Shown: one piece after another, positions 12,348-32,248 of the stretch | Layout: the number at the start of each line of letters is the position of its first letter | Position numbering within the stretch: position 1 is the stretch's first letter | Assembly (NCBI RefSeq): GCF_013328815.1 | Contig: NZ_JABUHN010000011.1 | Location: forward strand, 1-64,000 | Length of the DNA stretch: 64,000 nt | Origin: Tabrizicola fusiformis | GTDB taxonomy: Bacteria; Pseudomonadota; Alphaproteobacteria; Rhodobacterales; Rhodobacteraceae | Direction of reading: 5' to 3' | Position numbers and translations under genes: made by a program | Notes under the pieces: generated by a model | Told to the model about the DNA's origin: nothing | Database searches by the model: none | The model's input: only the letters and a program-made list of their open reading frames with translations

Positions 12348-12764
12348 TCAGTTTCCAGAAATCGCGTCGAGCACCGGACAGTTGGGGACTTCGGCGCCAG
12401 AACACCTGGATGCCGTTGCAGCGAGGACGGATTCGATCCGCCGGAGATCCGCGATCTTCGCCCGCACGTCCGCAAGGTGACGTTTTGTCCGCTCCTTGAC
12501 CTCGGCGCAGGTCGGCGCGGCACCATCGTCGAGCCCCATCAGCCCGCGAATGTCCTCCATCGAGAACCCGAGCTCGCGGGCGCGCAGGATGAAGCGAAGG
12601 CGCGTGGCGTGTGCGGCGGAATATATCCGGTAGCCTGCGGCGCTGCGCGGCGGGTCGGGCAGCAGGCCGGTTTTCTCGTAATAGCGGATCGTCTCGATGT
12701 TGCATCCGGTCGCCCGGGCCAGGTCGCCGCGTGTTAAGCTGCTCTCGCTTTCGTGATCGATCAT
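12348..12764 (-). CDS. merR: MerR, Hg(II)-responsive transcriptional regulator
   Basis: A 138-residue MerR-family activator-repressor of the mercury operon. The N-terminal winged helix includes CNIETIRYYEKTGLLP. The mercury-binding cysteines typical of MerR are present at about residues 86, 121 and 129 (CAEVKERTKRH, RCSGAEVPNCPVLD). The start at 12764 is chosen by family alignment. It is divergent from merT and controls the promoter at 12778-12808. Confidence 0.93.
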   Translation of the reverse strand: MIDHESESSLTRGDLARATGCNIETIRYYEKTGLLPDPPRSAAGYRIYSAAHATRLRFILRARELGFSMEDIRGLMGLDDGAAPTCAEVKERTKRHLADVRAKIADLRRIESVLAATASRCSGAEVPNCPVLDAISGN

Positions 12765-12777
12765 GGGGGTTTTCCTC

Positions 12778-12808
12778 TTGAGCCTGTAGCTACTACAGAC
12801 CCTACACC
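12778..12808 (+). promoter_or_regulatory. MerR-controlled merT promoter/operator
   Basis: A TTGAGC -35 box at 12778-12783, a perfect dyad CTGTAG-CTA-CTACAG at 12784-12798, and a weak TACACC -10 box at 12803-12808. The 19-bp spacer is the over-long spacing that MerR corrects by untwisting DNA. Confidence 0.8.
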
Positions 12809-12839
12809 CATCGTCAACCACAGACGAAAGGTGCGCGAC

Positions 12840-13229
12840 ATGGCGCTGACAGACGACAGAACTGACACCTCAGCAGCGGATCGCCCCGCCCGAAAGGGCT
12901 GGCTTGCGGCGGGCGGGGTGATGGGCGCCTTTCTCGCCTCGGCCTGCTGTGTCGGACCATTGGTGCTGCTGACCCTCGGTATCTCGGGGGCCTGGATCAG
13001 CAACCTGACGGCGCTGGAGCCCTTCAAGCCGATCTTCGCCGTGATTTCGCTCGGCTTCATCGGGGCGGGATTCCGGCAGGTCTATTTCCGCAAACCGACC
13101 GTCTGCGAGCCCGGTTCCTACTGCGCGCGCCCATCCTCGGCGCGCATCACCAAGTCCGCTCTCTGGACCTCCCTGATCCTCGTCCTCGCTGCACTCACCA
13201 TCGACTGGTGGGCTCCGCTTCTCTACTGA
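12840..13229 (+). CDS. merT: MerT mercuric ion transporter
   Basis: A 129-residue inner-membrane protein with three predicted membrane helices. The paired cysteines in helix 1 (LASACCVGPL, about residue 39) receive Hg(II) from MerP. A second cysteine pair lies in the cytoplasmic loop (CEPGSYC). It passes mercury to MerA for reduction. First structural gene of the mer operon; ATG at 12840 has AAAGG upstream. Confidence 0.93.
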   Translation: MALTDDRTDTSAADRPARKGWLAAGGVMGAFLASACCVGPLVLLTLGISGAWISNLTALEPFKPIFAVISLGFIGAGFRQVYFRKPTVCEPGSYCARPSSARITKSALWTSLILVLAALTIDWWAPLLY

Positions 13230-13247
13230 TCTCGAAAGGACACCCTC

Positions 13248-13553
13248 ATGAAGACGATCCTTGCCCTTGTTCTGTTCGGCCTGACCGCCACAGCACCCAT
13301 CACGGCCATCCCTGCCGTCGCGCAAACCGTCGCCGCCGAGCAGACCCTCACCTTCGCGGTGGACAATATGACCTGTGCGCTGTGTCCGGTCACCGTGAAG
13401 CGCGCGATGGAGGGCGTCGAAGGCGTGCACGCGGTCGAGATCGACTTCGAGGCGCGCACCGCTACTGTCGTCTTCGACACCGCCGCGACCAGCGCAGAGG
13501 CGATCGCCACCGCGTCGGCCAATGCAGGCTACCCGGCGCGCGTCTCGGGTTGA
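13248..13553 (+). CDS. merP: MerP periplasmic mercury-binding protein
   Basis: A 101-residue protein with a cleavable signal peptide (about 1-27) and one heavy-metal-associated domain. The binding loop is NMTCALCPVTVKRAM, a CxxC variant with Leu between the cysteines that is typical of alphaproteobacterial MerP. It captures Hg(II) in the periplasm and hands it to MerT. It lies 18 bases after merT. Confidence 0.92.
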   Translation: MKTILALVLFGLTATAPITAIPAVAQTVAAEQTLTFAVDNMTCALCPVTVKRAMEGVEGVHAVEIDFEARTATVVFDTAATSAEAIATASANAGYPARVSG

Positions 13554-13557
13554 CGGG

Positions 13558-13791
13558 ATGACCGAGCGGACAGACCGCAAGCTGATTGCAACAGGTGTCG
13601 TCGGCACCGTCATCGCAGCGCTCTGCTGCTTCACGCCGATCCTGGTCGTTCTTCTCGGCGCCGTGGGCCTGTCGGCCTGGCTGGGTTGGCTCGACTATGT
13701 GCTGCTGCCCGCGCTGGCGTTTTTAATCGGCCTAACCATCTATGCCGTCTGGCGGCGGCAGCGGCGCAGGGCATCTCAAGAAAATGGATGA
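13558..13791 (+). CDS. merF: MerF-like mercury transporter
   Basis: A 77-residue membrane protein with two predicted helices. The vicinal cysteine pair in helix 1 (AALCCFTPILV, residues 22-23) is the hallmark of MerF. Well-studied MerF has a second cysteine pair near the C-terminus, and here none is visible; the tail is only basic. It may depend on MerT or MerA for the onward transfer. It starts four bases after merP and overlaps or abuts merA. Confidence 0.85.
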   Translation: MTERTDRKLIATGVVGTVIAALCCFTPILVVLLGAVGLSAWLGWLDYVLLPALAFLIGLTIYAVWRRQRRRASQENG

Positions 13792-13795
13792 GTTC

Positions 13796-15220
13796 ATGAA
13801 ATTCGAAACCAAGGCGCCCACGGGCGATTTCGACCTCGCCGTGATCGGCGCCGGATCGGCTGGCTTCTCCGCCGCGATCACCGCCGCCGAGGGCGGCAAG
13901 CGCGTCGCGCTGATCGGGCATGGGACCATCGGCGGCACCTGCGTGAACGTGGGCTGCGTGCCCTCCAAGACGATGATCCGCGCTGCGGAAGCCCTGCACA
14001 GCGCGCAGTCGGCGCATCGTTTCCCGGGCCTCAGCGGAGAGGCGCAGGTCGCCGACTGGTCGGCGCTGGTTGCGGCCAAGGACGATCTTGTCGCTACACT
14101 GCGCCAGAAGAAGTACGCCGATCTGCTGCCGGGCTACGAGGGTGTGACCTATCTCGACGAGGGTCCAGGCCGTCTCGTCCCCGGCGGGGTCGAGGTCGGC
14201 GGGCGCAGGATCACGGCTCCCAAGGTGATCGTCGCCACCGGCGGTCGACCGGCCAGGCCCGACATCCCTGGGGTCCGGGACGTACCAACGCTCGACAGCA
14301 CGTCGCTGCTGGATCTCGACCAGTTGCCCGAAAGCCTGATCTTCCTCGGCGGCGGCTATATCGGCGTGGAGCTGGCGCAGATGATGGCGCGGATGGGCAC
14401 GCGGGTTACCATCGTCTGCCGTTCGCGCCTGTTGCCGCGCACCGAGCCGGAGGTGGCGCAAGCGCTCACCGAGGTCTTGCGCGCCGGGAGTGTCACGGTT
14501 CTTGACGGCGCAACCTATCACGCCGCGCGGCGCGACGGAGACCGTGCGGTGCTGACCGTGACGGTGAATGGCGCGGAGCGCGAACTGACGGCCGACCGCC
14601 TCGTCCTGACGACGGGGCGCGCCGCCAACACCGAGGGGCTGGGCCTCGCGGAGATGGGCGTCGAGACCGACGCACGCGGTGCGATCCGGGTTGGCGACGA
14701 CATGCAGACCACAAAGCCCGGGATCTTTGCCGCGGGTGACGTCACGGACCGCGATCAATTCGTTTATATGGCCGCCTATGGCGCCAAGTTGGCCGCCCGC
14801 AACGCCGTCATGGGCGGGGCCGAACAATACGACAATGCGGCGATGCCCTGGGTGGTGTTCACTGATCCGCAGGTCGCCGGGGTCGGGCTGACTGAGGCGC
14901 AGGCGCGCGCGGCGGGTCATGACGTCAAGACCAGCGTGCTGACCCTCGACAACGTGCCTCGCGCGCTTGCCGCGCGCGATACGCGCGGGCTGATCAAGCT
15001 GGTCGCGGACCGGGCGACAGACCGTCTGCTTGGCGGCGTGATCATGGCGCCGGAGGGGGCAGACAGCGTGCAGACGCTGGTCATGGCGCTTAAGATCGGT
15101 ATGACGACGAAGGCACTCGGCGAGACGATCTTCCCCTATCTGACAACGGTCGAGGGGCTGAAACTCGCCGCGCAGACTTTCGACAAGGATGTCGCGAAGC
15201 TGTCGTGCTGCGCTGGATGA
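13796..15220 (+). CDS. merA: MerA mercuric reductase
   Basis: A cytoplasmic flavoenzyme of 474 residues that reduces Hg(II) to Hg(0) with NADPH. Visible are the FAD-binding fold (DLAVIGAGSAGFSAA), the redox-active disulfide GTCVNVGCVPSKT, an NADPH-binding fold (IFLGGGYIGVELAQ), a second FAD segment (GIFAAGDVTD) and the essential C-terminal cysteine pair LSCCAG. The N-terminal metal-binding NmerA domain is absent, as in many alphaproteobacterial forms. An upstream ATG at 13784 overlapping merF is a possible alternative start. Confidence 0.95.
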   Translation: MKFETKAPTGDFDLAVIGAGSAGFSAAITAAEGGKRVALIGHGTIGGTCVNVGCVPSKTMIRAAEALHSAQSAHRFPGLSGEAQVADWSALVAAKDDLVATLRQKKYADLLPGYEGVTYLDEGPGRLVPGGVEVGGRRITAPKVIVATGGRPARPDIPGVRDVPTLDSTSLLDLDQLPESLIFLGGGYIGVELAQMMARMGTRVTIVCRSRLLPRTEPEVAQALTEVLRAGSVTVLDGATYHAARRDGDRAVLTVTVNGAERELTADRLVLTTGRAANTEGLGLAEMGVETDARGAIRVGDDMQTTKPGIFAAGDVTDRDQFVYMAAYGAKLAARNAVMGGAEQYDNAAMPWVVFTDPQVAGVGLTEAQARAAGHDVKTSVLTLDNVPRALAARDTRGLIKLVADRATDRLLGGVIMAPEGADSVQTLVMALKIGMTTKALGETIFPYLTTVEGLKLAAQTFDKDVAKLSCCAG

Positions 15221-15277
15221 AACGAGCAGATTTATCCAGCTTGGACCCTCAAGCGTGTCTAAGACGAGCAAGGCAGG

Positions 15278-15479
15278 CGAAATGACCCCACTTTCGGGCA
15301 AGACCACGCGCGCCTTGCGCGCCGTGCTTACCGAATGGCCCCTTGTCTCTGCCCCGATGGGCGAGGCCCTGACCAACGCTAGCCGTGCCGCCGTGCAACG
15401 CAATCTCGCCTGGACGCAAGCGCGAGGCCTGATCCGGGAGGTGACGGGGCAGGGGCGGTATCGATTGTGGCGCATGTGA
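15278..15479 (+). pseudogene. Partial copy of the 3' end of the HTH gene at 11220-12290
   Basis: About 190 bp match 12080-12272 at roughly nine bases in ten, and the encoded peptide repeats the C-terminal winged-helix segment (ASRAAVQRNLAWTQARGLI, then REVTGQGRYRLW). It lies 57 bases after merA. The mer operon is therefore flanked by direct repeats of this gene end. It could be translated from ATG 15282 as a 65-residue DNA-binding peptide. Confidence 0.75.
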
Positions 15480-16038
15480 GCAACCAAATGGGCACCACCA
15501 GGAGCGTTTTTGCACAAGTAGAGACAAATGGCAGTAAAGGTTCGCTGAGCACTATTGCACGGGTTGCGGCAAAGTTAAAAAGCGGTGCTTGGGGTAGGTC
15601 AGGGGCGTCCTGATACCGGATGCGAAGGGGTGACAATTAAGCTTATTGTGCAAAACTCGATGGATCTGGGCCTGATGCTGATCACGGACTAGATCCCCAG
15701 CTGCAGGAATATTGACAAGATCTTCGCCAGTCATCTGACCGCACAATACAACAAGGGCCAGTATTCCAACGAATAACCGGTGCGCATGTCAAAATCATGA
15801 GGACCGTGAACGGGATCGGCTACCCGAATGGGTTTTCCGGTGGCATCGATCGATCGGTTGAGAAATAACAGCGTCGATTTTTGCTATGACATTGGTGTAA
15901 TAGACCCACCTGAAAGGCTATCCTTCCTTGACATGATTGCTCCTAAATCAGATAGTTCGCGTATGGGGATTGCGAGCTCCCCACGAGGCGCCAGCCGAAG
16001 ATCGCGTTCCATACCACCCGCAAGACGGAGGAACGCAC
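15480..16038. other. 559-bp stretch without a convincing gene
   Basis: More A/T-rich than its surroundings. The short open frames on both strands have no ribosome-binding sites or recognisable products. It ends with the leader of chrB (GGAGGA before 16039). Probably recombination debris between the mer and chr modules. Confidence 0.4.
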
Positions 16039-16860
16039 ATGCCTGCGCCCAATGCCATTTCGTTCGAAAAGCTTACCCGCATCATCGGAACCCCCCGCGC
16101 ACCGCTCCTGCTCGACGTGCGATCCGAAGAGGATTTTGCCGCTGATCCACGGCTGCTCCCTGGCGCCACCCGGATCGACGATCAGACGCTCGCCGACCTC
16201 GCGCCACAACTCGGCGGCCAGTCGTCGATCGCTGTCTGTCAAGCTGGCCACCGCCGCAGTCAGGGTACCGCCGCCTGGCTGCGCGCCGAGGGTTGCTCCT
16301 CGGAATATCTCGAGGGCGGTTTCGAGGCATGGCGCTCTGCCGGGTTGCCGCTGATTGATCGGGCTAAGTTGCCCGCGCGCGATGCGCAGGGTCGCACCAT
16401 CTGGGTCACGCGCTCGCGGCCCAAGATTGACCGCATCGCGTGTCCCTGGCTGATCCGGCGCTTTCTCGATCCCCGCGCGATCATCCTGTTCGTCGCGCCT
16501 GCCGAGGTGGAGGGCGTCGCCGAACGATACAATGGGTCGCCCTTCGACATCGAAGGTGTGTTCTGGAGCCACCGGGACGACCTCTGCACCTTCGACGTCA
16601 TGCTCGCCGAGTTCGGCCTGACCATTCCTGCCCTCGACCGGCTCGCGACAATCGTGCGCGGCGCTGACACTGCGCGACTCGACCTCGCGCCCGAGGCGGC
16701 CGGCCTGCTTGCCGCATCGCTCGGCCTGTCACGTATGTATTCGGACGATCTGGAGCAGTTAGAGGCCGGAATGTTGCTATACGACGCCTTCTATCGCTGG
16801 GCGCGGGATGCAACTGACGAAACACATAATTGGCCCACCAACAAGCCGAAGGCAGACTGA
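16039..16860 (+). CDS. chrB: ChrB-like chromate resistance protein with rhodanese domain
   Basis: A 273-residue two-domain protein. Residues 1-110 form a rhodanese-like domain with the active-site loop [12 protein letters not shown]. Residues ~120-270 match the ChrB C-terminal domain ([41 protein letters not shown]), implicated in chromate sensing or resistance. A GGAGGA ribosome-binding site supports the start. The stop overlaps the chrA start (TGATG), so the two genes are coupled. Confidence 0.85.
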
Positions 16861-17309
16861 TGCAGGACCGCACATATCCAACGCTGACCGAGGCTACTCG
16901 TATATGGGCCCGTATCGGTCTCTTGAGCTTCGGCGGTCCAGCTGGACAGATCGCGCTTATGCACCGCATCCTGGTCGAGGAGCAACGCTGGCTTGGCGAG
17001 AAGCGGTTCCTCCATGCGCTTAACTATTGCATGTTGTTACCAGGCCCGGAAGCGATGCAACTCGCGGTCTATATTGGCTGGCTGATGCACCGCACGCTCG
17101 GCGGCATCATCGCGGGCGTCCTGTTCGTGCTGCCCGGCGTCATCGCTATCATGGCGCTCAGCTGGATCTATGCGCTCTACGGCAATGTCGGACCGATCGA
17201 GGCACTGTTCTTCGGGCTCAAGGCGGCAGTGCTGGCCATCGTGGTGCAGGCGGTCATCCGTATCGGATCGCGTGCCCTGAAGAACGGCGCGATGGTCGCT
17301 GTCGCGTGA
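16860..17309 (+). pseudogene. chrA: Truncated chrA chromate transporter
   Basis: 149 residues of a ChrA efflux protein, N-terminal half only ([23 protein letters not shown], quoted in part, and [16 protein letters not shown] are the CHR-family signatures). Full-length ChrA has about 400 residues in two CHR domains. The reading frame ends three bases into the inverted repeat of the insertion sequence at 17306, and no 3' half appears beyond it. The single half-domain may still fold, since short CHR pairs exist, but no partner is seen. Confidence 0.85.
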
Positions 17310-18857
17310 GAGCGTTCAATTCCCTGGGGTGCATTGTTTGCCGAAGCGGGCTCTACTCTCTGCCAGTCTTGGCAGAGGAGAGGCAGGATGCGCTGGAAAA
17401 TCAGTATTGAGGGTTCGGACGAAATCACGCGAGGCCACCGGTTCGAGTTTGAGATCGAGAAGAGCCTTGATGATCTGATCGCCGGTAACGTCGGCCTGTC
17501 GATCGATGAAGGCAAAGCTATCATGGCCTCGCTTCAACGGAACATCATCGAGCGGCAGTGCGCCCTCTATGTTCTGTTCCGACGTCATTGCGAGGGATGT
17601 GGCGGAACGCGGCCGGTCAAGGACTATTCGACCAGAACGATCCAGACAGTTTACGGCGCTGTGACCGTGGAGAGCCCGCGGCTGTACCCCTGCCGCAGCT
17701 GCATGCCCGGCGTTGATTTCACAATCACCCCGATTTCCGAGCTCTGCCCTAACCGGGCGACTGCAGAACTGATGACACTTACTGCTAAGCTTGGCGCACT
17801 TATGCCCTACCGGGCAGCGGCGAAAGTTCTGACCGATTTTCTGCCTGGGCAGACACCAACTCGGCACACGACCCTGCGACATCGCACGTTGGCAATTGGC
17901 AAGCGACTGGAAGAAAAGGAAGAACAGCGCATGCTCTTTGAAAAAGTTGACACGCAGGAACGTCATCAACGCGAGCTGCCGCTGCCTGGAGACCCAGAAA
18001 GGGAATTTGTCCTCAGCATCGATACTGCTCATATCCCGCAAGTCCGCGGCCATGAAACGCGAAGTTTCGAAGCGGTCATTTGTCATGCAAGTCGTGGCGG
18101 GGTCGGATCCGACCGAGGAATCTTGTTCGCGTTTTCTGGCACCTCGCGAAAGAGAATGCGCGCGGAAGGGCTACTCGCCCTCAAACGACTTGGATACGAA
18201 GGCAAAGGCGAAATCACTGTGATTTCTGATGCTGAGGACTGTCTGAAACGCCTAAAATCAGCACTACCACAGACAGCCACGCACATCCTCGACTGGTTTC
18301 ACATTGCCATGAAGCTGCGCCCCATCGAGCAGACTGCCGCGTGGTTGGCGCGCCGACTGCCGCCGGACGAGCGGGAGGAGCTTCTGGAGGACATAACAGC
18401 GGTGAGGTGGCGTCTTTGGAATGGTCAAACAGACAGGGCAATTGACCTGATCGGTCGCCTGTTTCACGACCTGAAGGCAGTTGAACAGGGCAGCACCGCG
18501 ATCGTCCCGCTACGAGGCGGTCTGTTGAACTTGCGCACCTACATCGAGCAGAACCGGGGTTCGATCGCCAACTACAGCGCAAGATATCGCGAAGGGAAAC
18601 GGATCGCCTCCACGGCGGCTGAAGCGAGCGTCAACAATCTCGTCGCAAAGCGGATGGTCAAGAAGCAACAGATGCGCTGGTCGGAACGAGGGGCGAACCT
18701 GCTCCTTCAGGTTCGCGTCGCCCTTGCCAATGGCGATCTTGCGGAACGTCTCGCCTACCAGCCGCCCATTCAACCAAGGCAGACCATCATTTCGCCATTC
18801 GTGCCGGTACCGCTCTTTCAGCGTGCCGCATGACCCCAGGTAGTTGAACGGTCCCAC
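17306..18857 (+). mobile_element. ISKra4-family insertion sequence
   Basis: 1552-bp element with 25-bp imperfect terminal inverted repeats at 17306-17330 and 18833-18857, matching in 21 of 25 positions. It carries one transposase gene and interrupts chrA. No direct target duplication is evident, and the sequence to the right is not chrA, so a deletion or rearrangement followed or accompanied insertion. Confidence 0.8.
17388..18833 (+). CDS. ISKra4-family transposase
   Basis: A 481-residue DDE transposase. A zinc-finger-like region (CEGCGGTRPVKDYSTRTI and CRSCMPG) is followed by the catalytic segments FVLSIDTAHIP, VISDAEDCLKRL with ILDWFHIAMKL, and the C-terminal ASTAAEASVNNLVAKRM block carrying the final glutamate. 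Start at 17388 is chosen for the GAGAGGCAGG leader. Length and motifs look intact, so the element may still move. Confidence 0.85.
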   Translation: MRWKISIEGSDEITRGHRFEFEIEKSLDDLIAGNVGLSIDEGKAIMASLQRNIIERQCALYVLFRRHCEGCGGTRPVKDYSTRTIQTVYGAVTVESPRLYPCRSCMPGVDFTITPISELCPNRATAELMTLTAKLGALMPYRAAAKVLTDFLPGQTPTRHTTLRHRTLAIGKRLEEKEEQRMLFEKVDTQERHQRELPLPGDPEREFVLSIDTAHIPQVRGHETRSFEAVICHASRGGVGSDRGILFAFSGTSRKRMRAEGLLALKRLGYEGKGEITVISDAEDCLKRLKSALPQTATHILDWFHIAMKLRPIEQTAAWLARRLPPDEREELLEDITAVRWRLWNGQTDRAIDLIGRLFHDLKAVEQGSTAIVPLRGGLLNLRTYIEQNRGSIANYSARYREGKRIASTAAEASVNNLVAKRMVKKQQMRWSERGANLLLQVRVALANGDLAERLAYQPPIQPRQTIISPFVPVPLFQRAA

Positions 18858-19123: not shown

Positions 19124-19297
19124 TCAGCTTCTTGCCGCCCTCCAGACAACTGCGGCGATGGCAAAGAACAGGGCGGCCCCGAAGCCCCACACGCGGGCAT
19201 AGCCAATCATGTCGCCCCATGGGGCCAAGGCATAGCCGATCGCCAAGGCGGTCCAGATGCACGCCACGCCAATCAACAGCCAGATATCTTCTTTCAT
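19124..19297 (-). CDS. Small two-helix membrane protein, 57 aa
   Basis: Short protein with two hydrophobic stretches (about residues 6-24 and 32-52) and a basic end. AGGAGA stands before the ATG at 19297. It lies 25 bases after the oxidase-like subunit I gene in the same direction and may be a small accessory subunit of that complex. A GAAGCTG/CAGCTTC hairpin shortly downstream (about 19110-19127) could end the transcript. Confidence 0.6.
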   Translation of the reverse strand: MKEDIWLLIGVACIWTALAIGYALAPWGDMIGYARVWGFGAALFFAIAAVVWRAARS

Positions 19298-19322: not shown

Positions 19323-20990
19323 TCAGTGACCCATCTCGCCAGTGGCGATGAGGGGAACCGCTTGCAGCAACTCGAACCCAAGGGTGCTGAAGCCATACAT
19401 GGCGACCGCAATCACGAGGATGGACACCGGCCCTGTCCAAGCAGCGTTGCGCCCGACGGGCAAGGCCTCCCATTGGACCGGAGCCCGGTAGGATGCCTCC
19501 GCTGTTTCCGACCGGCCGAACACCGAAGCCAGAGCGATCGCTGCATAGGCAAGGAGGGAGAGCGCCATGACGGTTCCGCCCAAGCCGACAAATCCCATGA
19601 GTGTCGACCAGACCGCAGGCGCTTCGCCGCCGTATGTGACATCCATCACCCGCCGCGGCACGCCCATGTAACCCGCAGCCACGCCCGCGCTGCCAAATAC
19701 CAGAAGCCCTGCCGATGCCACCCACGGCAGCGACCGCAGCAGCCCCGGCGCACGAAGCGGGCGGCCAGTCAACTCTGGCAACAACGCCGTGAGTCCCGCG
19801 AGCAGCGACAGGCTGACGGTTCCCACCGTGAAGAAATGGAAGTACCCCGGAACGAAGAACGTATCCGACAGCAGCGGTGCCAGCTTCTCCTGGATCAGCA
19901 CGAATGCCAGCGAGATGCCGAAGATCATGTTGACCACGGCCATGCTTGCCGCGTTTGTCGCGGGATGCTCCCACGGCAGCTTGCGCAACCAGCCGAACAG
20001 ACCCGTTGCACCCGAGGCTCGCGCGTGAACCTCCAGCGTTGCGACGATCACCAGGAAGGCGGTCAGCGTCGGTACCGAAACGAACAGCGAGAGCGCCGAA
20101 CCCGCCACCTTGACATACTCCGGCAGGCCGGGGTCGAGGAACATGTGGTATAGCGAGGTTGGCGGCACGAAGACGAGATACAGGCTGAAGACCAGCTTCG
20201 AGAATCTGGCACCAAACACCGACTTTGCGCCGGTCAGCACCTGCATCAGGATGTACCAGACAACCACCGTCGCCATGAGCGGCAAGTAATGCAGATTGTG
20301 GAACAGGATGTGCCAGCCTGTCTCCTGGCTTGCCGGAAAGGCGCCCAGTCCGGCGGCCCAGAGCAAGGCCGGCAGGAAGGCGTGAATTGCCGCAAAGCCG
20401 GTGACGATCAGAAAGCCGGCCCATGCCAGAAGGGCAAAGCCAAGCGCGTCCAGAGACCGGCGGCGGCTGCGCCCGAGAGAGGGCAGAAGCGTGGCAATGG
20501 CGGATGCCGGGACCAGGATCAGACCAAGTCCCAGCAAGACATAGCCAAGGCTGAAGACCAGAGCGGTCATCGGTTCATCAACCAGTAGGTCGGCCTTGCC
20601 GTCGTATAGCGGGGGCGAACCCATCACCGAGGCCAGAAGCCCAAGGCCGAACCCCAGCACCATCGCAATGGATCCGGAAAGGGCCAATGGATGCTTGACC
20701 AGTCCGGTCTTCCCCCCGCCGTTCCCGCGCTCGGCGGCAGAAAACCCGAGCAGCAGGGCCGCCTGGGCGAAGTAGAGCCAGTAGAAGAAGGCACTGAGTC
20801 CGTGCACCGAAAGGAAACGGTAGCCGGACTCGGGCAGGACCGGCAGGAACCCGGCCCGGACAAGGGCGGTCAGCAGACCGCCCGCAAGGCCGATGATCAG
20901 CGCCACAAGTGCAGCGACAGCCAGAAAGATGACAATGCGCCGATCCTGACGAGGAAGCGAGCGCAACCGGGAAACGATTGTGTCAGACAT
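19323..20990 (-). CDS. Heme-copper oxidase subunit I-like protein with altered active site
   Basis: A 555-residue membrane protein with about 13 helices, aligning from memory with B-family (ba3-type) oxidase subunit I. Low-spin heme ligands fit: His63 (SVHGLSAFF) and His385 (VPGYFHFF). The CuB ligand His231 and Tyr235 (FHNLHY) also fit. But the paired CuB histidines read Tyr281-His282 (SLYHMFLDPG), and the high-spin heme ligand position is Tyr383 (VPGYFH instead of VPGHFH). Both TAC codons (minus strand, at 20148-20150 and 19842-19844) are clear. Oxygen reduction by the usual mechanism is doubtful; nitric oxide chemistry or simple electron transfer are alternatives. It lies 13 bases after subunit II and has a GGGAGG ribosome-binding site. 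Confidence 0.8.
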   Translation of the reverse strand: MSDTIVSRLRSLPRQDRRIVIFLAVAALVALIIGLAGGLLTALVRAGFLPVLPESGYRFLSVHGLSAFFYWLYFAQAALLLGFSAAERGNGGGKTGLVKHPLALSGSIAMVLGFGLGLLASVMGSPPLYDGKADLLVDEPMTALVFSLGYVLLGLGLILVPASAIATLLPSLGRSRRRSLDALGFALLAWAGFLIVTGFAAIHAFLPALLWAAGLGAFPASQETGWHILFHNLHYLPLMATVVVWYILMQVLTGAKSVFGARFSKLVFSLYLVFVPPTSLYHMFLDPGLPEYVKVAGSALSLFVSVPTLTAFLVIVATLEVHARASGATGLFGWLRKLPWEHPATNAASMAVVNMIFGISLAFVLIQEKLAPLLSDTFFVPGYFHFFTVGTVSLSLLAGLTALLPELTGRPLRAPGLLRSLPWVASAGLLVFGSAGVAAGYMGVPRRVMDVTYGGEAPAVWSTLMGFVGLGGTVMALSLLAYAAIALASVFGRSETAEASYRAPVQWEALPVGRNAAWTGPVSILVIAVAMYGFSTLGFELLQAVPLIATGEMGH

Positions 20991-21003
20991 TGGAACCTCC
21001 CCT

Positions 21004-21675
21004 TCAGACGACGGTAATGCGGGCTTGCATGCCATCATGGCCGGGTCCGCAGTAGGATGTGCAATAGACGAGAAAACTGCCCGGTCGGGTGAACGTCATT
21101 TGCAGTTCCGTCTCGACCCCGGGGCCGAGGCGGATCATCCTGGCGCCTTCTCCGAACTGGATCGACGCGCCGTGGGTGACGTCGGCGGCCAGCATTCGGA
21201 AGCGATAGGGCCGGTCGACCTCCAGCCGGATGTCCGAGGGGTCAAAGTAGAAACGTTCGGCCAGCATGAGCACTTCGACGGGCGTGTCCATTCCTGCATG
21301 ATCCGGCTCGGTGTGTGCTGCTTCCACATCAGAAGCCATCTCCATCCCGTCCATGTTCATGCCGGACATGGCTTCCGGATTGGCGACCGGCCTGGGATAG
21401 ACGGATCCATCCGGCTCGCTGAAGCGGGCGACGAAATCGGCAAGCTCTGTCCGGAAGGCTTCGACATTCGATGTCGAAGCCATTCCGCCGTGACCCTCCA
21501 TTGCCATCGCGGCCATGGGATCAGAATCCGCAGCTGAGGTTTCTGCGTTGCGCAAGAATGCGAAGGGGTTTGGGGCTGCGCCGTAAGCGGCCCAGAGGCC
21601 GTAGAGGCTTACGCCGCCAAAGCCCAACGTGGCGATGAACCCACGTCTTGTGGTGAAGTGTTTGTCGGGTTTCAT
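21004..21675 (-). CDS. Cytochrome oxidase subunit II-like CuA protein
   Basis: A 223-residue periplasmic protein. The N-terminus has a twin-arginine pattern (TTRRGFIATLG) with a hydrophobic segment. A Met/His-rich linker follows (about residues 54-130, with GMNMDGMEM). The C-terminal cupredoxin has a complete CuA set: His168, Cys205, Cys209, His213 and Met216 (CTSYCGPGHDGM). CuA would accept electrons from a cytochrome c or cupredoxin and pass them to subunit I. First oxidase gene of the minus-strand operon headed by the small protein at 21827-22228. Confidence 0.85.
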   Translation of the reverse strand: MKPDKHFTTRRGFIATLGFGGVSLYGLWAAYGAAPNPFAFLRNAETSAADSDPMAAMAMEGHGGMASTSNVEAFRTELADFVARFSEPDGSVYPRPVANPEAMSGMNMDGMEMASDVEAAHTEPDHAGMDTPVEVLMLAERFYFDPSDIRLEVDRPYRFRMLAADVTHGASIQFGEGARMIRLGPGVETELQMTFTRPGSFLVYCTSYCGPGHDGMQARITVV

Positions 21676-21826: not shown

Positions 21827-22228
21827 CTAGATCGCAATCGGCGGACGATATCCTGGAGACACGGCAACGCCGGAATGGTCTGCTCGGTCGAGGCCCAGGA
21901 TCACGGCAGTCGCGATCGACACCAGAGGCGTCAGAGGATTGCTCTCGCCAAGACTTATCGAAATGCATCCGAGAAGCGGACAGGCCTGAAGGTGCGACGC
22001 ATGTATTCTGGATGCGACGCCTTCCGTCTCGCCAGTACCGATGTGCACCGAGGAGTCAAAGTGCGACGCGATGGTGGTGCATCCAGTTGCAGTCGTGGCA
22101 TCGGAAGCCAAGGACGGCTGCCCGACAAAGCCCAGTACGGCTACGGCAAGGGTAAGAAGCATCCGGAGAAAGATGCCATGCCCGGCTGGGGCATTTCTTT
22201 TTGCGCGGACGTTCCCTTGGTGTTGCAT
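21827..22228 (-). CDS. CutF-like small leader protein (oxidase-like operon)
   Basis: 133 residues: basic N-terminus, one hydrophobic segment (about 19-40), a His-containing region, the cysteine pair CPLLGC (Cys83 and Cys88), a second hydrophobic stretch and a proline-containing end, GYRPPIAI. No enzyme motif. Architecture matches four other small proteins in this window (33975, 48012, 49060 and 58194). It precedes the oxidase-like genes with a 151-base gap and follows an FNR-type site at 22285-22298. By analogy with CutF and CruR it may regulate translation of the downstream genes in response to copper; this is inference. Confidence 0.55.
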   Translation of the reverse strand: MQHQGNVRAKRNAPAGHGIFLRMLLTLAVAVLGFVGQPSLASDATTATGCTTIASHFDSSVHIGTGETEGVASRIHASHLQACPLLGCISISLGESNPLTPLVSIATAVILGLDRADHSGVAVSPGYRPPIAI

Positions 22229-22611
22229 TCTGCGCCTGACCAGTCAGCAATGGCCAATGCTCTCAGGCGAGACCTGACCTCGCCTTGACACAAGTCAAGT
22301 GCCCCGGTTTTTGCAACAATCAAGCGTGATCAGACCCGCATCCCTGTTTTCTAAGGCGCGTCGTCGGGTGATGCGGCGCATTCTGATTTGTCACGGACCG
22401 AAGGGGGCAGGCGTGCCAGCGTCAGGGCAAGACCCAACCATCCGATCAAGCTCGCGTCCGGAACGCGCCCGACGTAGAGCGCGGCGATGTCAGGCGGGAT
22501 GGTGGGAACGGAGCAAGCGGCACCTGCCGCCAGAAAATCCCACTGGTTGCCACGACAGCGGTAACGGCCCGCCCGGCTTGTCGGATCCAAGGAACAGCGG
22601 TCTGCACGAAG
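22229..22611. other. Intergenic stretch upstream of the oxidase-like operon
   Basis: 383 bp. The part near 22285 holds the FNR-type site. The remainder, up to the end of cueR, has only weak open frames, one of about 80 codons on the minus strand (22351-22590) with a hydrophobic patch and no ribosome-binding site. It may be debris of a lost gene. Confidence 0.4.
22285..22298. promoter_or_regulatory. FNR/CRP-type binding site before the oxidase-like operon
   Basis: TTGAC-ACAA-GTCAA, a perfect dyad matching the FNR/FnrL/Dnr consensus TTGAY-N4-RTCAA, centred about 63 bases before the start of the small leader gene. It suggests induction at low oxygen or by nitric oxide. Confidence 0.6.
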
Positions 22612-23082
22612 TCAATGTGTTTGAAGTATGGTCGCCGGACCGGAGCGGATTGCCGCAGACCGGCCGCCTTCGCTGTGGGCGTCGACTTGTTGCGGACCCT
22701 CCAGCAGATCGGCAAGGATCGGACAGTCGGGACGGTGGTCGCCGCAGCATGCGTTAGCCAGGTGACGGAGCGTGTCCATCATCGCCTGCATCTCGCGAAT
22801 ACGAGTCTCAAGACCGGCGATCTGCTCCAGGGCGATCCGCTTCACGTCGGCGCTCTGCCGGGACCGGTCCTGCCAAAGTGCCAACAGTTCCTCGATTTTT
22901 TCGACCGGGAAACCAAGGTCGCGCGCCCTGCGAATGAAGCGCAGAACCTGCACGTCGGTCATTGTGTAGAGGCGGTATCCTGACGTTGTTCGCCCCGCTG
23001 CCGGGATGAGACCGACGGACTCATAGTAGCGGATCATCTTGGCCGACACGCCCGAGGCCTTTGCAGCTTCACCGATATTCAT
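22612..23082 (-). CDS. cueR: CueR, Cu(I)-responsive MerR-family regulator
   Basis: A 156-residue regulator. An N-terminal winged helix (ASGVSAKMIRYYESVGLIP) and long dimerisation helix are followed by the metal loop with Cys112 and Cys120 (ACCGDHRPDCPIL), as in CueR. The third residue ATG (23082) is preferred because GAAGGAGG lies at proper distance. The C-terminus is about 25 residues longer than usual, perhaps from a changed downstream sequence. It is 13 bases after copA in the same direction, so copA-cueR form an operon, and it should act at both promoters in 25607-25705. Confidence 0.9.
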   Translation of the reverse strand: MNIGEAAKASGVSAKMIRYYESVGLIPAAGRTTSGYRLYTMTDVQVLRFIRRARDLGFPVEKIEELLALWQDRSRQSADVKRIALEQIAGLETRIREMQAMMDTLRHLANACCGDHRPDCPILADLLEGPQQVDAHSEGGRSAAIRSGPATILQTH

Positions 23083-23095
23083 GACCATTCCTCCT

Positions 23096-25573
23096 TCAAT
23101 TCAATGTTGCGGGCGCAAAGCGCCGCAGCCGAAGTGCGTTGCTGAGCACGAAGACGGATGAGAGGGCCATGGCGGCGGCGGCGATGATCGGCGACAGAAG
23201 GAGGCCGAAGGCGGGCCACAGCACCCCCGCAGCTACCGGGATCAGCAGCGCGTTGTAGATGAAGGCCCAGAACAGGTTCTGCCGGATGTTGCGCATCGTC
23301 GCTTTCGACAGCGCGATGGCGTCGGACACGGCGGTCAGCCGGCCGGTCATCAGCACCACATCCGCCGCCTCGATGGCGATGTCGGTGCCGGTGCCGACGG
23401 CGAGGCCCACATCCGCCTCGGCCAGCGCCGGGGCGTCGTTGATGCCGTCGCCGACATAGGCAAGCTGGCCGATACCTTTCAGCCGCTTCACCGCATCGAC
23501 CTTGCCGTCGGGCAGCACCTCGGCCACCACCTCGTCGATGCCAAGCTGGCGGGCGATGGCGTTCCCGGTGCGGGCGTTGTCGCCGGTTATCATCGCGACC
23601 TTCAGACCAAGGGCGTGCAGCGCGCGGATCGCCTGTGGCGTGGTTTCCTTGATTGGGTCGGCGACGGCGAGGATCGCTGCCAGCTTCCCGTCGATGGTGG
23701 CATAGAGCGGCGACTTGCCCTGATCACCCATCTGCGCGGCGGCGTCGGCGAATTGGGCCACGTCAAGGCCGAGCTTGGTCATGTAGCGGTCGGCGCCGAC
23801 CTCGATCCTTTGCCCGCCTGCCGTGGCGGTGACGCCAAAGCCGGTGACGGAGTCGAAAGAGGTGACTTCGGCCAGGGTCAGCCCGTCCACACCCGCCGCC
23901 GCGACGATGGCGCGGGCGATCGGGTGTTCCGATTTCGCCTCGACCGCCGCGACGGCGGCGAGGACGGCGGCACGGTCGAAGCCCGGCGCGAGCACGAGGT
24001 CGGTCAGCTTCGGCTTGCCCTCGGTGAGGGTGCCGGTCTTATCCAGCGCCACCACCTTGACGCCTTGCAGCGATTGCAGCGCCTCGCCCTTGCGGAACAG
24101 GACACCGAGTTCCGCGCCGCGCCCGGTGCCGACCATGATCGAGGTCGGCGTGGCCAGCCCCATGGCGCAGGGGCAGGCGATGATCAGCACGGCCACCGCG
24201 TTGACAAGGCCGAAGGTCAGCGCTGGATCGGGGCCGAAGACCAGCCAGACTGCGAAGGTCAGTGCGGCCAGCACCATCACGGCGGGCACGAACCACATCG
24301 TCACCTGATCGACCAGCGCCTGAATCGGGAGTTTCCCGCCCTGCGCCGCCTCGACCATGCGGATGATCTGGGCGAGCATCGTCGCCTCGCCAACCGCCGT
24401 GGCACGGAAGCTGAAGGCGCCGGTCTGGTTGACCGTGCCGCCAGTGACGGCGCTGCCTGCGATCTTTTCCACCGGCAGAGGTTCGCCCGAGATCATGCTT
24501 TCGTCGATCCAGCTATTCCCGTCGGTGACTTCGCCGTCGACCGGCACCTTCTCGCCCGGTCGGACCTCGACCACATCGCCGGGGCGGACCTCGGCAACGG
24601 GCAGTTCTACCGCGACACCGCCCCTGACGACGCGGGCGGTCTTGGCCTGCAACCCCACCAGCCGCTTGATTGCCTCCGATGTGCGGCCCTTGGCGCGGGC
24701 TTCAAGGTAGCGGCCGAGCAGGATCAGCGTCACGATCACTGCGGCCGCCTCGTAGTAGACGTTGATGGTGCCAGGGGGCAGCAGACCGGGGGCAAAGGTC
24801 GCCACCAGCGAATAGGCGTAGGCGGCGGAAGTGCCGACCGCGACCAGGCTGTTCATGTCGGGTGCCAGCCGCGCCAGCGCCGGGAAACCCTTGCGGAAGA
24901 AGCGCAGGCCGGGGCCGAAAAGCACGGCGCTGGCCAGGGCGAACTGGACATACCAGCTTGCCTGGAGGCCGATGCTGTTCACGATCGCCATGTGAATCGG
25001 CATGAACAGATGCCGACCCATCTCCAGCACGAAGACCGGCGCGGTCAGGGCGGCGGCAATCAGCACGTCGCGCTTGAGGCCAGCCTCTTCGGCGGCCTTT
25101 TTCGCCGCCGTCTCGTCCGACACAGCCATCGCCGGGGCGGCGGGACGGGCGTCGTAGCCCGCATCGGCCACCGCGCGCACCAGCGCCGCCGGATCGGCCG
25201 ACCCCGTCACCGTCGCCCGCTCGGTCGCGAGGTTGACGACGGCTGAGGTCACACCCGGCACCGTTTTCAACGCCCGTTCCACGCGCGCAACGCACGAGGC
25301 GCAGGTCATCCCCTCGATCTCCAGATCGACGGGACGCACGGGAACGGCGTAGCCTGCCCCCTCCACCGCCTGCACCAGCGCCGCACGGTCCAGCGACGGG
25401 CCGGTCACTTCGGCGCGCTCGGTCGCCAGGTTGACCGATGCCGCAGCCACCCCCGGCACCGCTTTCAGCGCCCGTTCGACATGTGCCACGCAGGAGGCGC
25501 AGGTCATGCCCTCGACTTCGATCACCATCCGGTCCGTGGCGGATACGGATGGTTGCCTTGCCTGCATGTTCAT
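23096..25573 (-). CDS. copA: CopA Cu(I)-exporting P1B-type ATPase
   Basis: An 825-residue inner-membrane pump exporting Cu(I) from cytoplasm to periplasm. Two N-terminal heavy-metal domains ([15 protein letters not shown] and [15 protein letters not shown]), eight membrane helices with the CPC motif ([12 protein letters not shown]), phosphorylation site [14 protein letters not shown]-binding [11 protein letters not shown] and hinge [16 protein letters not shown] are all present. Length is normal. GGAAGGAG precedes the start. Transcribed from the CueR-type promoter at 25607-25637. Confidence 0.95.
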
Positions 25574-27900: not shown

Positions 27901-28944
27901 TCACCAGCGGGCAAGCGCACCGATGCCAAGCGCCGCATCGGTCAGGGCCATAGTGGCGAACGCCTCGGTCGCCAATCCCGTCAGCGCCCGGATGGCGTCG
28001 ATCGTCTCAGGGATAACAATGGCCTGGTTGTCCACCATGTAGGCGTAGAACAATTCGTCCCCCTGCACGGTCAGCATGTCCTCCCAGAGCGCGACTTCGT
28101 AGAGGTTGTCGTGCGGGCGGCCCAGATCGGCCATCATCTCCTTCACGGCATTCAGCGCGTCGAGCCCGTCGTCCATGCGGATCAGCGCAATGCGCGACGA
28201 GGCGCGGAAGGCGTCTAGAACCTCCGCCTTGGTCGCGGCGCGGGTCATCTGCACCGACCAGTAATGCAGATGCGCCAGCGTCTCGGGCACCTTCACCGCC
28301 ATCGTCACCACGTCCAGATCGGGATCGACGCTTTGCGCGTCGGGACCCTGGTGGCTGGGAATAGCGGGTTCCGGGACCAGCGTGTTCATGATGCCGCCGA
28401 GATGGCTTTCCCAGGGATCGGTCGCCCGACGGAGCAGCGTACCGCGCGCCCGTGCCAGCAGGCTCGCGCGTTTCAGAGCGTTGAGCGTGCGAACGATGGA
28501 CGTGGTGTTGCAGGACACGACCCGGGTGCTGTCGCGGCCGATGGCACTGGCAAAGCTGGCCTCGGCGACGAAGGAATGGCCGGTGACCGAATGCTTCTCT
28601 CCTCCCTGGAGGATGAAGCGGATGCCACGTTTGCGGTAGGCCTCGACATTTGCTGCCGCGATCCGCTTTGGCGTGCAGTCCACCACCACATCCGCCTGCG
28701 CGAGCAGATCGTCGAGCGTGCCCGAGACGGCAAGATCGACGGCGCGCATCGCCGCCGCGTGATCCGCAGTTGCCCCGAACAGTGCAAAGCCCTTGGCCAA
28801 AGCCATCCGGGGGCGCCAGTCGGCGGATACGTCGCATACCCCGGCGAGCGCCATGTCGGGCTGCAGCACCACCGCATCGGCCACTCGCTTGCCGATGACG
28901 CCATAGCCGTTGACCGCGACGCGGACCTTTTTTGTGATGTTCAT
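27901..28944 (-). CDS. Type II (archaeal-type) glyceraldehyde-3-phosphate dehydrogenase
   Basis: A 347-residue oxidoreductase of the archaeal GAPDH family, EC 1.2.1.59 by family, using NAD or NADP. An N-terminal Rossmann motif VNGYGVIGKRVADAV is followed by CDVSADWRPRMA, and the catalytic cysteine lies in RVVSCNTTSIVRTL. It is unrelated in detail to bacterial GapA. Internal ATG at 28944 is chosen for AGGAGA eight bases upstream. It sits at the end of the ECF/ATPase operon and may open a glycolytic route under copper or hypoxic stress, when the usual Cys enzyme is poisoned; the role is inference. Confidence 0.85.
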   Translation of the reverse strand: MNITKKVRVAVNGYGVIGKRVADAVVLQPDMALAGVCDVSADWRPRMALAKGFALFGATADHAAAMRAVDLAVSGTLDDLLAQADVVVDCTPKRIAAANVEAYRKRGIRFILQGGEKHSVTGHSFVAEASFASAIGRDSTRVVSCNTTSIVRTLNALKRASLLARARGTLLRRATDPWESHLGGIMNTLVPEPAIPSHQGPDAQSVDPDLDVVTMAVKVPETLAHLHYWSVQMTRAATKAEVLDAFRASSRIALIRMDDGLDALNAVKEMMADLGRPHDNLYEVALWEDMLTVQGDELFYAYMVDNQAIVIPETIDAIRALTGLATEAFATMALTDAALGIGALARW

Positions 28945-29266
28945 GCCGATTTCTCCTCTTTCAACCAGGACGGTCGACTGTTGCCACCGTCTCGTGCTTT
29001 CGATGTTGGCCGGCGTCAGCGGCGCGACGTCCCGCAGATGCGCAAGCTTCTTTCGGACCACCATTGTCCGGCCGCCGCGAAAGCCTGCGGCACCGCTGCA
29101 GTTGCTTTGGCCGCCTTTGGTCCTGAGCGGGTCGCCCATGCCCGAGGCCCGATCGCAACCGTTTCTTCAAACGCGTTCGAACAGGTCATTCATTTCGGTT
29201 CCTTCCTGCGTTTCGCGCAGTCTTGAAGAGATGCCAGGGTGCAGAGACGATTGCCGGAGCAACCGG
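28945..29266. other. 322-bp gap upstream of the GAPDH gene
   Basis: Contains an eight-codon mini-ORF on the minus strand starting near 29190 (MNDLFERV then stop) behind a decent ribosome-binding site. It could be the start of a frameshifted gene or a leader peptide. No other feature seen; it may hold a GAPDH promoter. Confidence 0.35.
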
Positions 29267-29770
29267 TCAGTCCCCGGTGGGGGTATAGGTGAATGGGAAC
29301 ACGATACCCTTCGCCCGTCCGGGAAGAATGACATCGAAAGAAAGTTCAAGGGCTTGCCGGCTGGGAAGCTCCGCGAAGGCTCCCCAGGTCACAGTCCCGG
29401 CGATCAACATCGGTTCGAGGTTCAGCCGGGTGTTCCCGATGTGGCCAAGTTCCATGAGCTTGACCGACACGCGCGCCGCTTCGATCCTCGCGCCGGTTGT
29501 GGCATCGAACAGGGCGAGGACGAGATGATATTGATTGCGACCCTCGGGAACGCCGCCATGCATCGTGCCTTCGGAATGGGAGCTTGGATGACCCCGGACG
29601 ATCGCGGCGGGCAAGACACCGAGGTAGGCGAGTACGTCGTCGACGACCATGGAATTGGCGTCGGCGGCATCCTGTGCTGGCGCGGACATGGGCAAGGCAA
29701 GAGCGGCGATTCCTGCACAGGAAAGCGCCAAAAGACTGCGTCGCGACAGCTGAGGCAGCGCGAGGGTCAT
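29267..29770 (-). CDS. Exported protein of unknown function
   Basis: A 167-residue protein with a twin-arginine-like signal peptide ([13 protein letters not shown], cleavage near residue 32). The mature part is mainly beta: [20 protein letters not shown] followed by VTWGAF and LSFDVILP segments, reminiscent of FixH/YtkA-like periplasmic domains, but I am not certain. His-rich patch [15 protein letters not shown] could bind metal. The ATG overlaps the ATPase stop by four bases, so it is translationally coupled to the ATPase and may assist export. Confidence 0.6.
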
Positions 29771-32175: not shown

Positions 32176-32248
32176 TGTACGTCGTCCCTCGTTGGCTGAT
32201 CTGGGCTGCGGCGCGCCGGGCATTGCGGCGCGTCGCAGTGGCGTTCCG

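Follow-up and report, generated by a model that had tools for sequence, protein, structure and literature searches.

Heme-copper oxidase homologues with tyrosine in place of two active-site histidines: a family with a CuA subunit and a possible link to copper and low oxygen

The stretch of Tabrizicola fusiformis DNA analysed here (64,000 nucleotides, referred to as the window) carries a short operon on the minus strand. The central gene (19323..20990) encodes subunit I, a B-family-like heme-copper oxidase homologue of 555 residues marked by Tyr281, Tyr383 and His234. The longest open reading frame begins further upstream, at 21038, and the start at 20990 was chosen. A gap of 13 bases separates subunit I from subunit II (21004..21675, minus strand), a 223-residue protein with a cupredoxin domain and complete CuA ligands; both frames run uninterrupted over their full length. 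On the other side lies a third subunit (19124..19297, minus strand) of 57 residues and two likely membrane helices. It has no match over a cut-off in Pfam; in 81 of the 83 homologous loci assembled in this work, subunit I is followed by a homologue with two such helices. Upstream of subunit II, a gene for a small, probably secreted protein of 133 residues (21827..22228, minus strand) is likely the first of the operon in the window. This protein also finds no match in Pfam and has homologues in six of the 83 loci. Approximately 60 bases upstream of its gene, and directly preceding the operon, is the FNR/FnrL/FixK-type palindrome TTGACTTGTGTCAA (22285..22298, minus strand). Further upstream, and reading in the same direction as the operon, are genes for a MerR-family regulator (22612..23088, minus strand) and a copper P1B-type ATPase with two HMA domains (23096..25573, minus strand).

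Subunit I matches the Pfam family COX1 (PF00115) with an E-value of 2.9e-34 and 119.1 bits against a cut-off of 34.8, and by both profile and fold it belongs to the heme-copper oxidase superfamily. Superposition of an AlphaFold model onto the Thermus thermophilus ba3 oxidase (PDB code 1ehk) with VIA-align gives a Z-score of 34.2 over 468 of the 555 residues with 24% identity, and a structure search with the same model returned Z-scores of 32.8 to 35 among the matches listed (50 chains). A phmmer comparison with ba3 (E approximately 1e-27, covering residues 186-498) pairs His231 and Tyr235 with His233 and Tyr237 of ba3, Tyr281-His282 with His282-His283, Tyr383 with His384 and His385 with His386. 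A full-length, ba3-like subunit with Tyr281-His282 and Tyr383 is thus as originally predicted. Three of the four residues proposed as anchors of that alignment (His231, Tyr235 and His385) are placed by phmmer; the fourth, His63, falls outside the significant stretch and is assigned by its match to the low-spin heme histidine of the outgroup rows. The codons of Tyr281 and Tyr383 are both TAC, in agreement with the claim that they are unambiguous.

Both tyrosines are present in all 83 homologous loci and in the window's own copy (84 of 84 rows), which supplies the count of homologues that had been suggested as a check. His231, Tyr235, His282 and His385 are similarly invariant, and the ligands of the low-spin heme are retained, His385 in 84 rows and His63 in 82, the remaining two being truncated. 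All 38 outgroup proteins keep the histidines at both of the substituted positions. The contig scan used six peptide patterns, one of which includes Tyr383, and 80 of 93 relatives were listed. Profile searches, which are free of the bias of that pattern and score only some candidates per genome, gave six family members other than the window's own, all with both tyrosines; two of these are identical to known loci (L117 to L038, L118 to L054) so that only four are new. Related loci are not independent, the 83 forming 61, 38 or 21 groups at 90, 80 or 70% identity, respectively. Alignments with the outgroup and ba3, and the inspection of histidine columns, leave out L002, L003, L078, L081, L083 and the window's own copy (L087), and add L116-L120. 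In a tree with 29 family rows, for which rows longer than 600 residues were cut to the last 560, the double-tyrosine proteins form one clade with an SH-aLRT value of 100.

The family is found across alpha-, beta- and gammaproteobacteria. Ten pairs give dN/dS values of 0.085-0.275, indicative of purifying selection, with the caveat that dS exceeds 1 in four pairs and is only 0.004 in one. The presence of both tyrosines in 83 of 83 loci together with these ratios excludes chance or sequencing error, and invariance over three proteobacterial classes under purifying selection argues against decay, as had been surmised. Misassembly is rejected on the same two grounds. The probability of a pseudogene or an error in the sequence is practically nil; the frames are intact and nothing was found in its favour. 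These proteins are derived from the B-family side of the superfamily and very probably constitute a distinct family in which the active site has been remodelled, rather than oxygen reductases of the standard kind. Among the papers listed by the literature searches none describes such a family; the work defining sNOR, gNOR, nNOR and eNOR lay outside these listings and might mention it. The 'atypical' oxidase of Melioribacter is a different enzyme judging from the passages of PMC5492636 that deal with it. A search of PHROGs gave no match.

Comparison with ba3 informs on what has been kept and what has changed. The two have in common the fold of subunit I, the low-spin heme ligands, the PRR motif, a CuA subunit II and the equivalents of His233, Tyr237 and His283. 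The family differs in an additional histidine, His234 (82 of 83 rows), in a Tat-like subunit II with a linker, and in a two-helix third protein, where ba3 has the one-helix subunit IIa. Positions that are fixed within the family and deviate from ba3 are concentrated around the binuclear centre. One of the three CuB histidines (His282 of ba3) and the proximal heme a3 ligand (His384) are tyrosine in 84 of 84 rows, while the residues of a putative His-Tyr pair, His231 and Tyr235, are retained in the same number. Around heme a3 the changes are His376 to Ser, Asn377 to Asp and Asp372 to Ala, with Thr302 to Ser and Asn366 to Leu in addition. Three glycines on helix IX are replaced, Gly362 by Phe or Leu and Gly363 by Ala or Ser in 83 of 83 rows, and Gly360 by Ile, Leu or Met in 56. 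In ba3, His376 and Asp372 are associated with propionate A of heme a3, and His282 with Thr302, according to sections of PMC10766771; sections of PMC3141039 describe the K path and place Arg449 and Arg450 at the heme b propionates. The heme b ligands and the corresponding arginines, Arg446 and Arg447, are invariant in the family. The coordinated changes beyond the two tyrosines had not been noticed originally, nor had His234, the third subunit, the small secreted protein, the FNR-type and CopR-like boxes or the copper genes around the operon.

An ordinary oxygen reductase, in which tyrosine is able to replace both histidines, would agree with the conserved fold, the His231/Tyr235 pair, His282 and the low-spin heme ligands. 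The proton pathway speaks against it. The K path of ba3 (Thr312, Tyr244, Ser309, Tyr237) is not preserved as a set; position 308 is Thr and 235 is Tyr in 83 of 83 rows, but Thr312 has become Ala, Val or Leu (position 311) and Tyr244 Val, Ala or Leu (position 242), neither original residue being kept in any row. The proton-loading residues His376 and Asp372 are also lost in 83 of 83 rows, and we regard oxygen reduction of the usual kind as very improbable. Ser298 and Ser301, considered as K-path residues, were rejected since Ser301 corresponds to Thr302 and the true K-path residues, Thr312 and Tyr244, are those lost (the relevant parts of PMC3141039 and PMC10766771).

Could other histidines occupy the vacated positions? 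With all alignment columns checked, no conserved substitute for the heme a3 ligand was found. On the CuB side the sequences offer only His234 as a possible replacement for the missing third histidine. The helix-IX replacements may mean that the protein no longer binds heme a3. Such a loss underlies an alternative in which CuA and heme b remain as an electron conduit, and the former binuclear site holds a single metal (with ligands drawn from, for example, His231, His282, Tyr281, Tyr383 and His234) or none; electrons would pass between a periplasmic donor and a partner such as quinone or copper ions. The changes at residues specific to heme a3 (His384, His376, Asp372, Asn366 and the three enlarged glycines) and the invariance of the heme b ligands and their arginines fit this. 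In the predicted model, the region of helices VI-IX has the lowest confidence, with pLDDT values of 59-75 at residues 271-310, 73-74 at 221-240 and 70 at 361-370, compared to over 90 in many other helices, if the C-terminal 65 residues and the loop 171-180 are set aside. However, the block that holds Tyr383 is modelled with a pLDDT of 89, low values elsewhere may be usual for ba3, and neither Tyr383 nor the residues on the CuB side would be expected to stay invariant in an abandoned site. We consider a conduit or merged metal site rather unlikely.

A further alternative is a variant nitric oxide reductase, another CuA-containing enzyme related to the B family. By profile score, the nearest other homologues of the family form a group, here termed the Gln group, in which the active-site tyrosine is replaced by glutamine. 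Passages of PMC6431628 describe 'degenerate B family' oxidases, which have no catalytic tyrosine and may, it is suggested there, act on nitric oxide. The Gln group resembles these, an assignment of our own in which the identity as nitric oxide reductases is assumed, and it may include the proposed families sNOR and eNOR. The double-tyrosine family joins the Gln group in the tree (SH-aLRT 90, with long branches), eight fixed positions are common to both against ba3 (for example Trp71, Pro207, Trp226 and Val242) and, like the family, two plasmid examples of the Gln group (L132 and L134) have the CuA motif. Against this, eleven fixed positions, Tyr235 and Tyr129 included, are common to the family and ba3 but not the Gln group. 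In their ligands the two are the reverse of each other. The Gln group keeps three CuB histidines and the heme histidine in 27 of 27 rows, with Gln at the position of Tyr235 in all of them, whereas the family has lost one histidine from each centre and retains Tyr235 in 84 of 84 rows. The bNOR of Bacillus azotoformans, formerly called CuA-NOR, is likewise related to the B family, but it is a characterized nitric oxide reductase from Bacillota and the likeness is by description only (parts of PMC11388526). On balance nitric oxide reduction appears improbable.

The route by which electrons would enter is well preserved. A CuA subunit lies beside subunit I in all 83 loci and the motif CxxxCxxxHxxM is present in 82, the exception (L002) appearing frame-shifted. 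The upstream CuA histidine lies in an HGAS motif of the subunit II consensus and completes the ligand set, so the expectation of an intact CuA subunit holds for the window and for nearly all its relatives. Subunit II scores against the CoxB model TIGR02866 with an E-value of 1.5e-7 and 31.2 bits, below the equivalog cut-off of 147.7. Its N-terminus is twin-arginine-like (TTRRGF) and is followed by a linker containing Met and His. Eight of the 83 rows, lacking a recognizable N-terminal or CuA motif, were omitted from the motif analysis, and the second arginine is absent in two of the remaining 75. The Met and His content of subunit II has a median of 9.2% (range 5.3-17.8, n = 76) compared to 4.9-7.7% in eight other CuA subunits, a modest excess with overlapping ranges. 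A local set of CuA assembly proteins had also been proposed, which the data do not bear out. In the window SCO1/SenC and PCuAC, identified by Pfam, and a second Sco and TlpA, recognized by eye, lie approximately 40 kb from the operon, and none of the 83 homologous loci, with flanks mostly up to 6 kb, has a match to Sco or PCuAC.

Genes of a different kind are found nearby. Copper or heavy-metal genes, putative Cus/Czc-like pumps among them, occur in 39 of the 59 loci of at least 11 kb; with the queries used, no copper gene was detected in the other 20. Putative copper pumps of the P1B type are present in 21 of the 59 (13 of 30 groups at 80% identity), against a background of 12 over the cut-off in the 4.4-Mb genome of the organism itself, or approximately 0.04 per locus, and on these gene counts copper ATPases are over-represented near the family. 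From a cluster of 12 response regulators, five were tested and all score over the cut-off as CopR/CzcR type (TIGR01387); both kinases tested, from a cluster of eight, are TIGR01386. Assignments made by eye include DUF411, Spy-like, mercury and chromate genes and the arginine deiminase pathway. Such company, with copper and heavy-metal regulators, ATPases, CusF-like and Met-rich proteins close by, would suit a copper device with no enzymatic function, the fold being reused as a sensor, chaperone or transporter. The retained CuA and bis-His heme sites argue instead for electron transfer, and we consider a device quite improbable. Multicopper oxidases are found near six of the 59 loci. Those of the CueO/CopA type share with the family this genomic company and possibly a job, dealing with periplasmic Cu(I), but not a fold. 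They need O2, whereas the family operon often carries control sites of the low-oxygen type.

These sites were sought with an FNR-type consensus taken from parts of PMC4634722. The genome of the organism contains 26 exact sites, compared to three for the reversed control pattern. Predicted boxes (TGA-N6-TCAA type) lie upstream in 36 of 80 loci where 0.84 are expected, and show a peak in position. They are present in 11 of 37 groups at 80% identity and not in the other 26, within 700 bases; an exact box is absent within 1 kb in 43 of 83 loci, three of which have little upstream sequence. In an unbiased palindrome scan, TTGAT-N4-ATCAA comes out on top (20 of 78 loci, 0.27 expected), followed by a CGCCA-N2 palindrome (11, 0.27 expected) and TTGAC-N4-GTCAA (8, 0.09 expected). 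CopR-like boxes lie 75-108 bases upstream in three loci (L015, L022 and L026) other than those with FNR-type boxes. The 38 loci without an FNR-type box gave no CueR- or NnrR-type box. Eight Azospirillum-type loci have a CueR-like palindrome, to which we give little weight because it is enriched no more than unnamed palindromes of the same scan. Since nitric oxide regulators of the same protein family also read FNR-type boxes, the nitric oxide alternative draws some support here. A role of the family connected with copper and low oxygen is, in our judgement, reasonably probable.

The double tyrosine substitution, the retained CuA and the copper-resistance and low-oxygen context together point to a redox enzyme, probably, and not a broken oxidase. 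As a whole we favour, tentatively and at somewhat under even chances, a low-oxygen, copper-linked membrane redox enzyme that is fed through CuA and is not an ordinary oxygen reductase. The half for electron input, CuA followed by the bis-His low-spin heme, would be kept and the catalytic half rebuilt. The complex would be made at low oxygen, under copper stress, or both. The electrons would be supplied by a reduced donor in the periplasm, possibly Cu(I) on the Met/His-containing linker of subunit II, and travel through CuA and heme b. They would arrive at a metal coordinated by His231, His234, Tyr281 and His282 and, should the protein still bind a high-spin heme, also at a heme with Tyr383 as its ligand. 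A heme with a phenolate ligand favours Fe(III) and would suit peroxide reduction over O2 binding to Fe(II); for this reason we propose removal of an oxidant, most likely H2O2, by periplasmic electrons without oxygen reduction of the ba3 type. Peroxide as substrate is a guess on our part, and an unlikely one, which fails if heme a3 is not bound. A precedent for the use of peroxide at low oxygen is that FnrL directly activates cytochrome-c peroxidases in Rhodobacter (passages of PMC4634722). A more specific form, in which phenolate-ligated centres replace the chemistry of both heme a3 and CuB in a membrane cuprous peroxidase or similar enzyme, supplied with Cu(I) via CuA at low oxygen, is distinctly doubtful. 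It might comprise a Tyr383-held heme and a His/Tyr metal, or one merged site of two His and two Tyr with the His-Tyr pair adjacent, comparable to galactose oxidase.

The known O2- and NO-reducing members of the superfamily are built on histidine ligands of the high-spin heme and CuB. That one ligand of each is tyrosine in all rows seen, in a family maintained by selection, suggests that this fold can take on a new role with a different metal centre, and the family offers a concrete test of what the heme a3 and CuB histidines are for. Since the Pfam COX1 profile accepts the family as an oxidase subunit, counts of terminal oxidases in genomes may wrongly include it. If the link to copper and low oxygen is true, the family would represent bacterial copper handling under conditions where the O2-dependent copper oxidases fail.

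The window, part of a 112-kb contig, carries four minus-strand genes that share one direction: those for a small, probably secreted protein of 133 aa (22228-21827), the 223-aa CuA subunit II (21675-21004), the 555-aa subunit I (20990-19323) and a 57-aa protein likely to have two membrane helices (19297-19124). Genes for a MerR regulator (23088-22612) and a copper P1B ATPase (25573-23096), read the same way, lie upstream of them. Three more COX1-family genes over the cut-off occur elsewhere in the genome, hence this subunit I is not the sole one. The Tabrizicola soli protein differs from it by one amino acid.

Subunit I matches Pfam COX1 (E 2.9e-34), the best PDB sequence match is the Thermus thermophilus ba3 oxidase, and the AlphaFold model (mean pLDDT 83) has the heme-copper oxidase fold, with a top Z of 35.0 (7deg) and 34.2 across 468 residues for 1ehk. 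As originally predicted, His63, His231/Tyr235 and His385 line up with the ba3-type ligands and two active-site histidines are replaced by tyrosine. His63 and His385 occupy the low-spin heme ligand positions and the CuB side retains His231/Tyr235 and His282; Tyr281 replaces the other CuB histidine and Tyr383 stands at the heme a3 ligand position. For much of helices VI-IX the model has low pLDDT (59-75 at residues 271-310), which may be usual, and the block holding Tyr383 reaches 89.

Scanning a single genome for each species yielded 80 relatives (of 93) with identities of 46-100%, which their record titles assign to alpha-, beta- and gammaproteobacteria; Azospirillum plasmids add three to make 83 loci. 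Across these and the window copy His231, Tyr235, Tyr281, His282, Tyr383 and His385 are invariant, and His63 is present in 82 of 84 rows, the remaining two being truncated. Since one search pattern of the scan included Tyr383, a profile search was also run. At the cut-offs used, matches occurred in 3 of 196 genomes from the order (the window copy, one member, one outgroup protein), 9 of 385 from the class (the window copy, five members, three outgroup) and 26 of 398 from the phylum (the window copy and 25 outgroup proteins). All six additional members, two identical to earlier rows and four new, carry both tyrosines. E values jump from 1e-104 or better to 1e-53, and no score falls in the gap, so the family, although rare in the sampled genomes, has a sharp boundary. 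Values of dN/dS are 0.085-0.275 (ten pairs).

The nearest relatives are a group with Gln at position 235 (27 rows: L090-L106, L109-L112, L115, L122-L124, L132 and L134), in which helix VI mostly reads G-H-S-S-Q-Q, and ordinary ba3 proteins (11 rows). Each of these 38 rows carries His at 231, 281, 282, 383 and 385. The Gln group may be one of the NO reductase families that have been proposed. A quick tree unites the Tyr/Tyr family in a single clade (SH-aLRT 100) whose stem is very long and which joins the Gln group with support of 90; the program flags long branches in this analysis. Fixed positions are divided, eight common to the family and the Gln group, eleven to the family and ba3. 'Degenerate B family oxidases', as described in PMC6431628, lose the catalytic tyrosine; the present family is the opposite case. 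No description of a Tyr/Tyr family came up among the open-access papers listed in literature searches.

Family-fixed positions that differ from ba3 cluster at the binuclear site. Besides the two tyrosines they comprise (ba3 numbering) H376 to S, N377 to D, D372 to A, T302 to S and N366 to L, then Y244 to V/A/L, T312 to A/V/L, G362 to F/L and G363 to A/S; G360 is altered in 56 of 83 rows. In ba3, according to PMC10766771, His376 and Asp372 form the proton-loading network with heme a3 propionate A, and His282 is hydrogen bonded to Thr302. PMC3141039 has Thr312, Tyr244, Ser309 and Tyr237 lining the K path and Arg449/Arg450 serving the heme b propionates. By these roles the heme b side is retained, and the changes fall on the heme a3 side and the proton paths. 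Beside Tyr235, 82 of 83 rows have gained His234, a position that is Val in 11/11 ba3 and Gln in 27/27 Gln group sequences, so that a metal site could comprise His231, His234 and His282 with Tyr281.

Subunit II accompanies subunit I at all 83 loci and its CuA motif is present in 82, in keeping with the intact CuA centre first proposed. The frame of Azospirillum brasilense MTCC4039 plasmid p1 (L002) lacks the CuA end, probably through a sequencing frameshift; two sister plasmids are intact. A twin-arginine start is found in 73 of 75 usable rows, and the linker has a median of 12.4% His+Met; compared over the whole chain, the enrichment relative to other CuA subunits is modest. At 81 of 83 loci subunit I is followed by a small third protein; of the two exceptions, one is at a contig end and the other (L036) has the gene further on. 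In seven gammaproteobacterial MAG loci (L048, L049, L053, L059, L060, L066 and L068) this two-helix protein is duplicated and fused, at about 120-130 aa. Homologues of the 133-aa gene occur in six loci; elsewhere, by eye, small Cys/His-rich, Met-rich or DUF411-like genes take its place.

Of the 59 loci that span 11 kb or more, 39 carry copper or heavy-metal genes and none were seen in the other 20. P1B ATPases occur in 21 of the 59 (13 of 30 groups at 80% identity) and Cus/Czc-like pump parts in 19; about two loci with P1B ATPases would be expected at the copper P1B density of the T. fusiformis genome (12 over cut-off), a single, metal-rich yardstick. Among the 12 response regulators in their cluster, the five that were tested are all CopR/CzcR type; among eight kinases, both of those tested are CopS/CzcS type. 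Neither Sco nor PCuAC was seen in any of the 83 loci, with flanks mostly up to 6 kb, and the suggested local supply for CuA assembly is thus not borne out across the family.

Within the window, mercury-resistance genes, a chromate-resistance gene with a short transporter frame and a transposase adjoin the operon (12348-18833, by eye). The metal-resistance island includes a glyceraldehyde-3-phosphate-dehydrogenase-like protein (27901-29139; Pfam Gp_dh_C and DapB_N). Another copper-type P1B ATPase (29767-32397, over the TIGR01511 cut-off) has, by eye, the membrane motif CPD, where CPC is usual. At 35360-45121, also by eye, arginine deiminase pathway genes (antiporter, deiminase, carbamoyltransferase, carbamate kinase) are followed by ribose-phosphate pyrophosphokinase, a metallo-beta-lactamase-type RNase and a thymidine-phosphorylase-like gene, which looks like an anaerobic-survival cassette adjoining the copper island.

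In 36 of 80 loci, against 0.84 expected, the 700 bases upstream of subunit II contain an FNR/FnrL-type palindrome, TTGAY-N4-RTCAA, and 11 of 37 groups at 80% identity have it; its position peaks at 400-800 bases upstream and it ranks first in an unbiased palindrome scan. L015, L022 and L026, loci without it, have TTACA-N4-TGTAA, which we take to be a CopR-like site, 75-108 bases upstream. Eight Azospirillum-type loci carry a CueR-like palindrome in addition to the FNR-type box, to which we give little weight because they are closely related. The T. fusiformis site (22285-22298) is one of 26 in the 4.4-Mb genome; the only other exact copy in the window (34390-34403) has a sigma-factor pair and a methyltransferase-like gene nearby. 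Another COX1 gene, on contig C23, has two of the 26 a short way upstream, resembling the FnrL sites at ccoN in Rhodobacter (PMC4634722).

That the electron-input ligands and the metal-side residues are conserved speaks for an enzyme. What speaks against oxygen reduction of the ba3 type is that the heme a3 histidine, one CuB histidine, two residues of the K path and the proton-loading residues are lost. A conduit, or a merged metal site with heme a3 absent, is nearly as likely as the reading preferred here, a redox enzyme. Phenolate-held hemes prefer Fe(III). For this reason, and because FnrL controls the Rhodobacter cytochrome-c peroxidases (PMC4634722), our guess is that the oxidant would be peroxide. 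Given its links to copper and low oxygen, the family protein is most economically read as a redox enzyme that faces the periplasm and serves under copper stress when oxygen is low.
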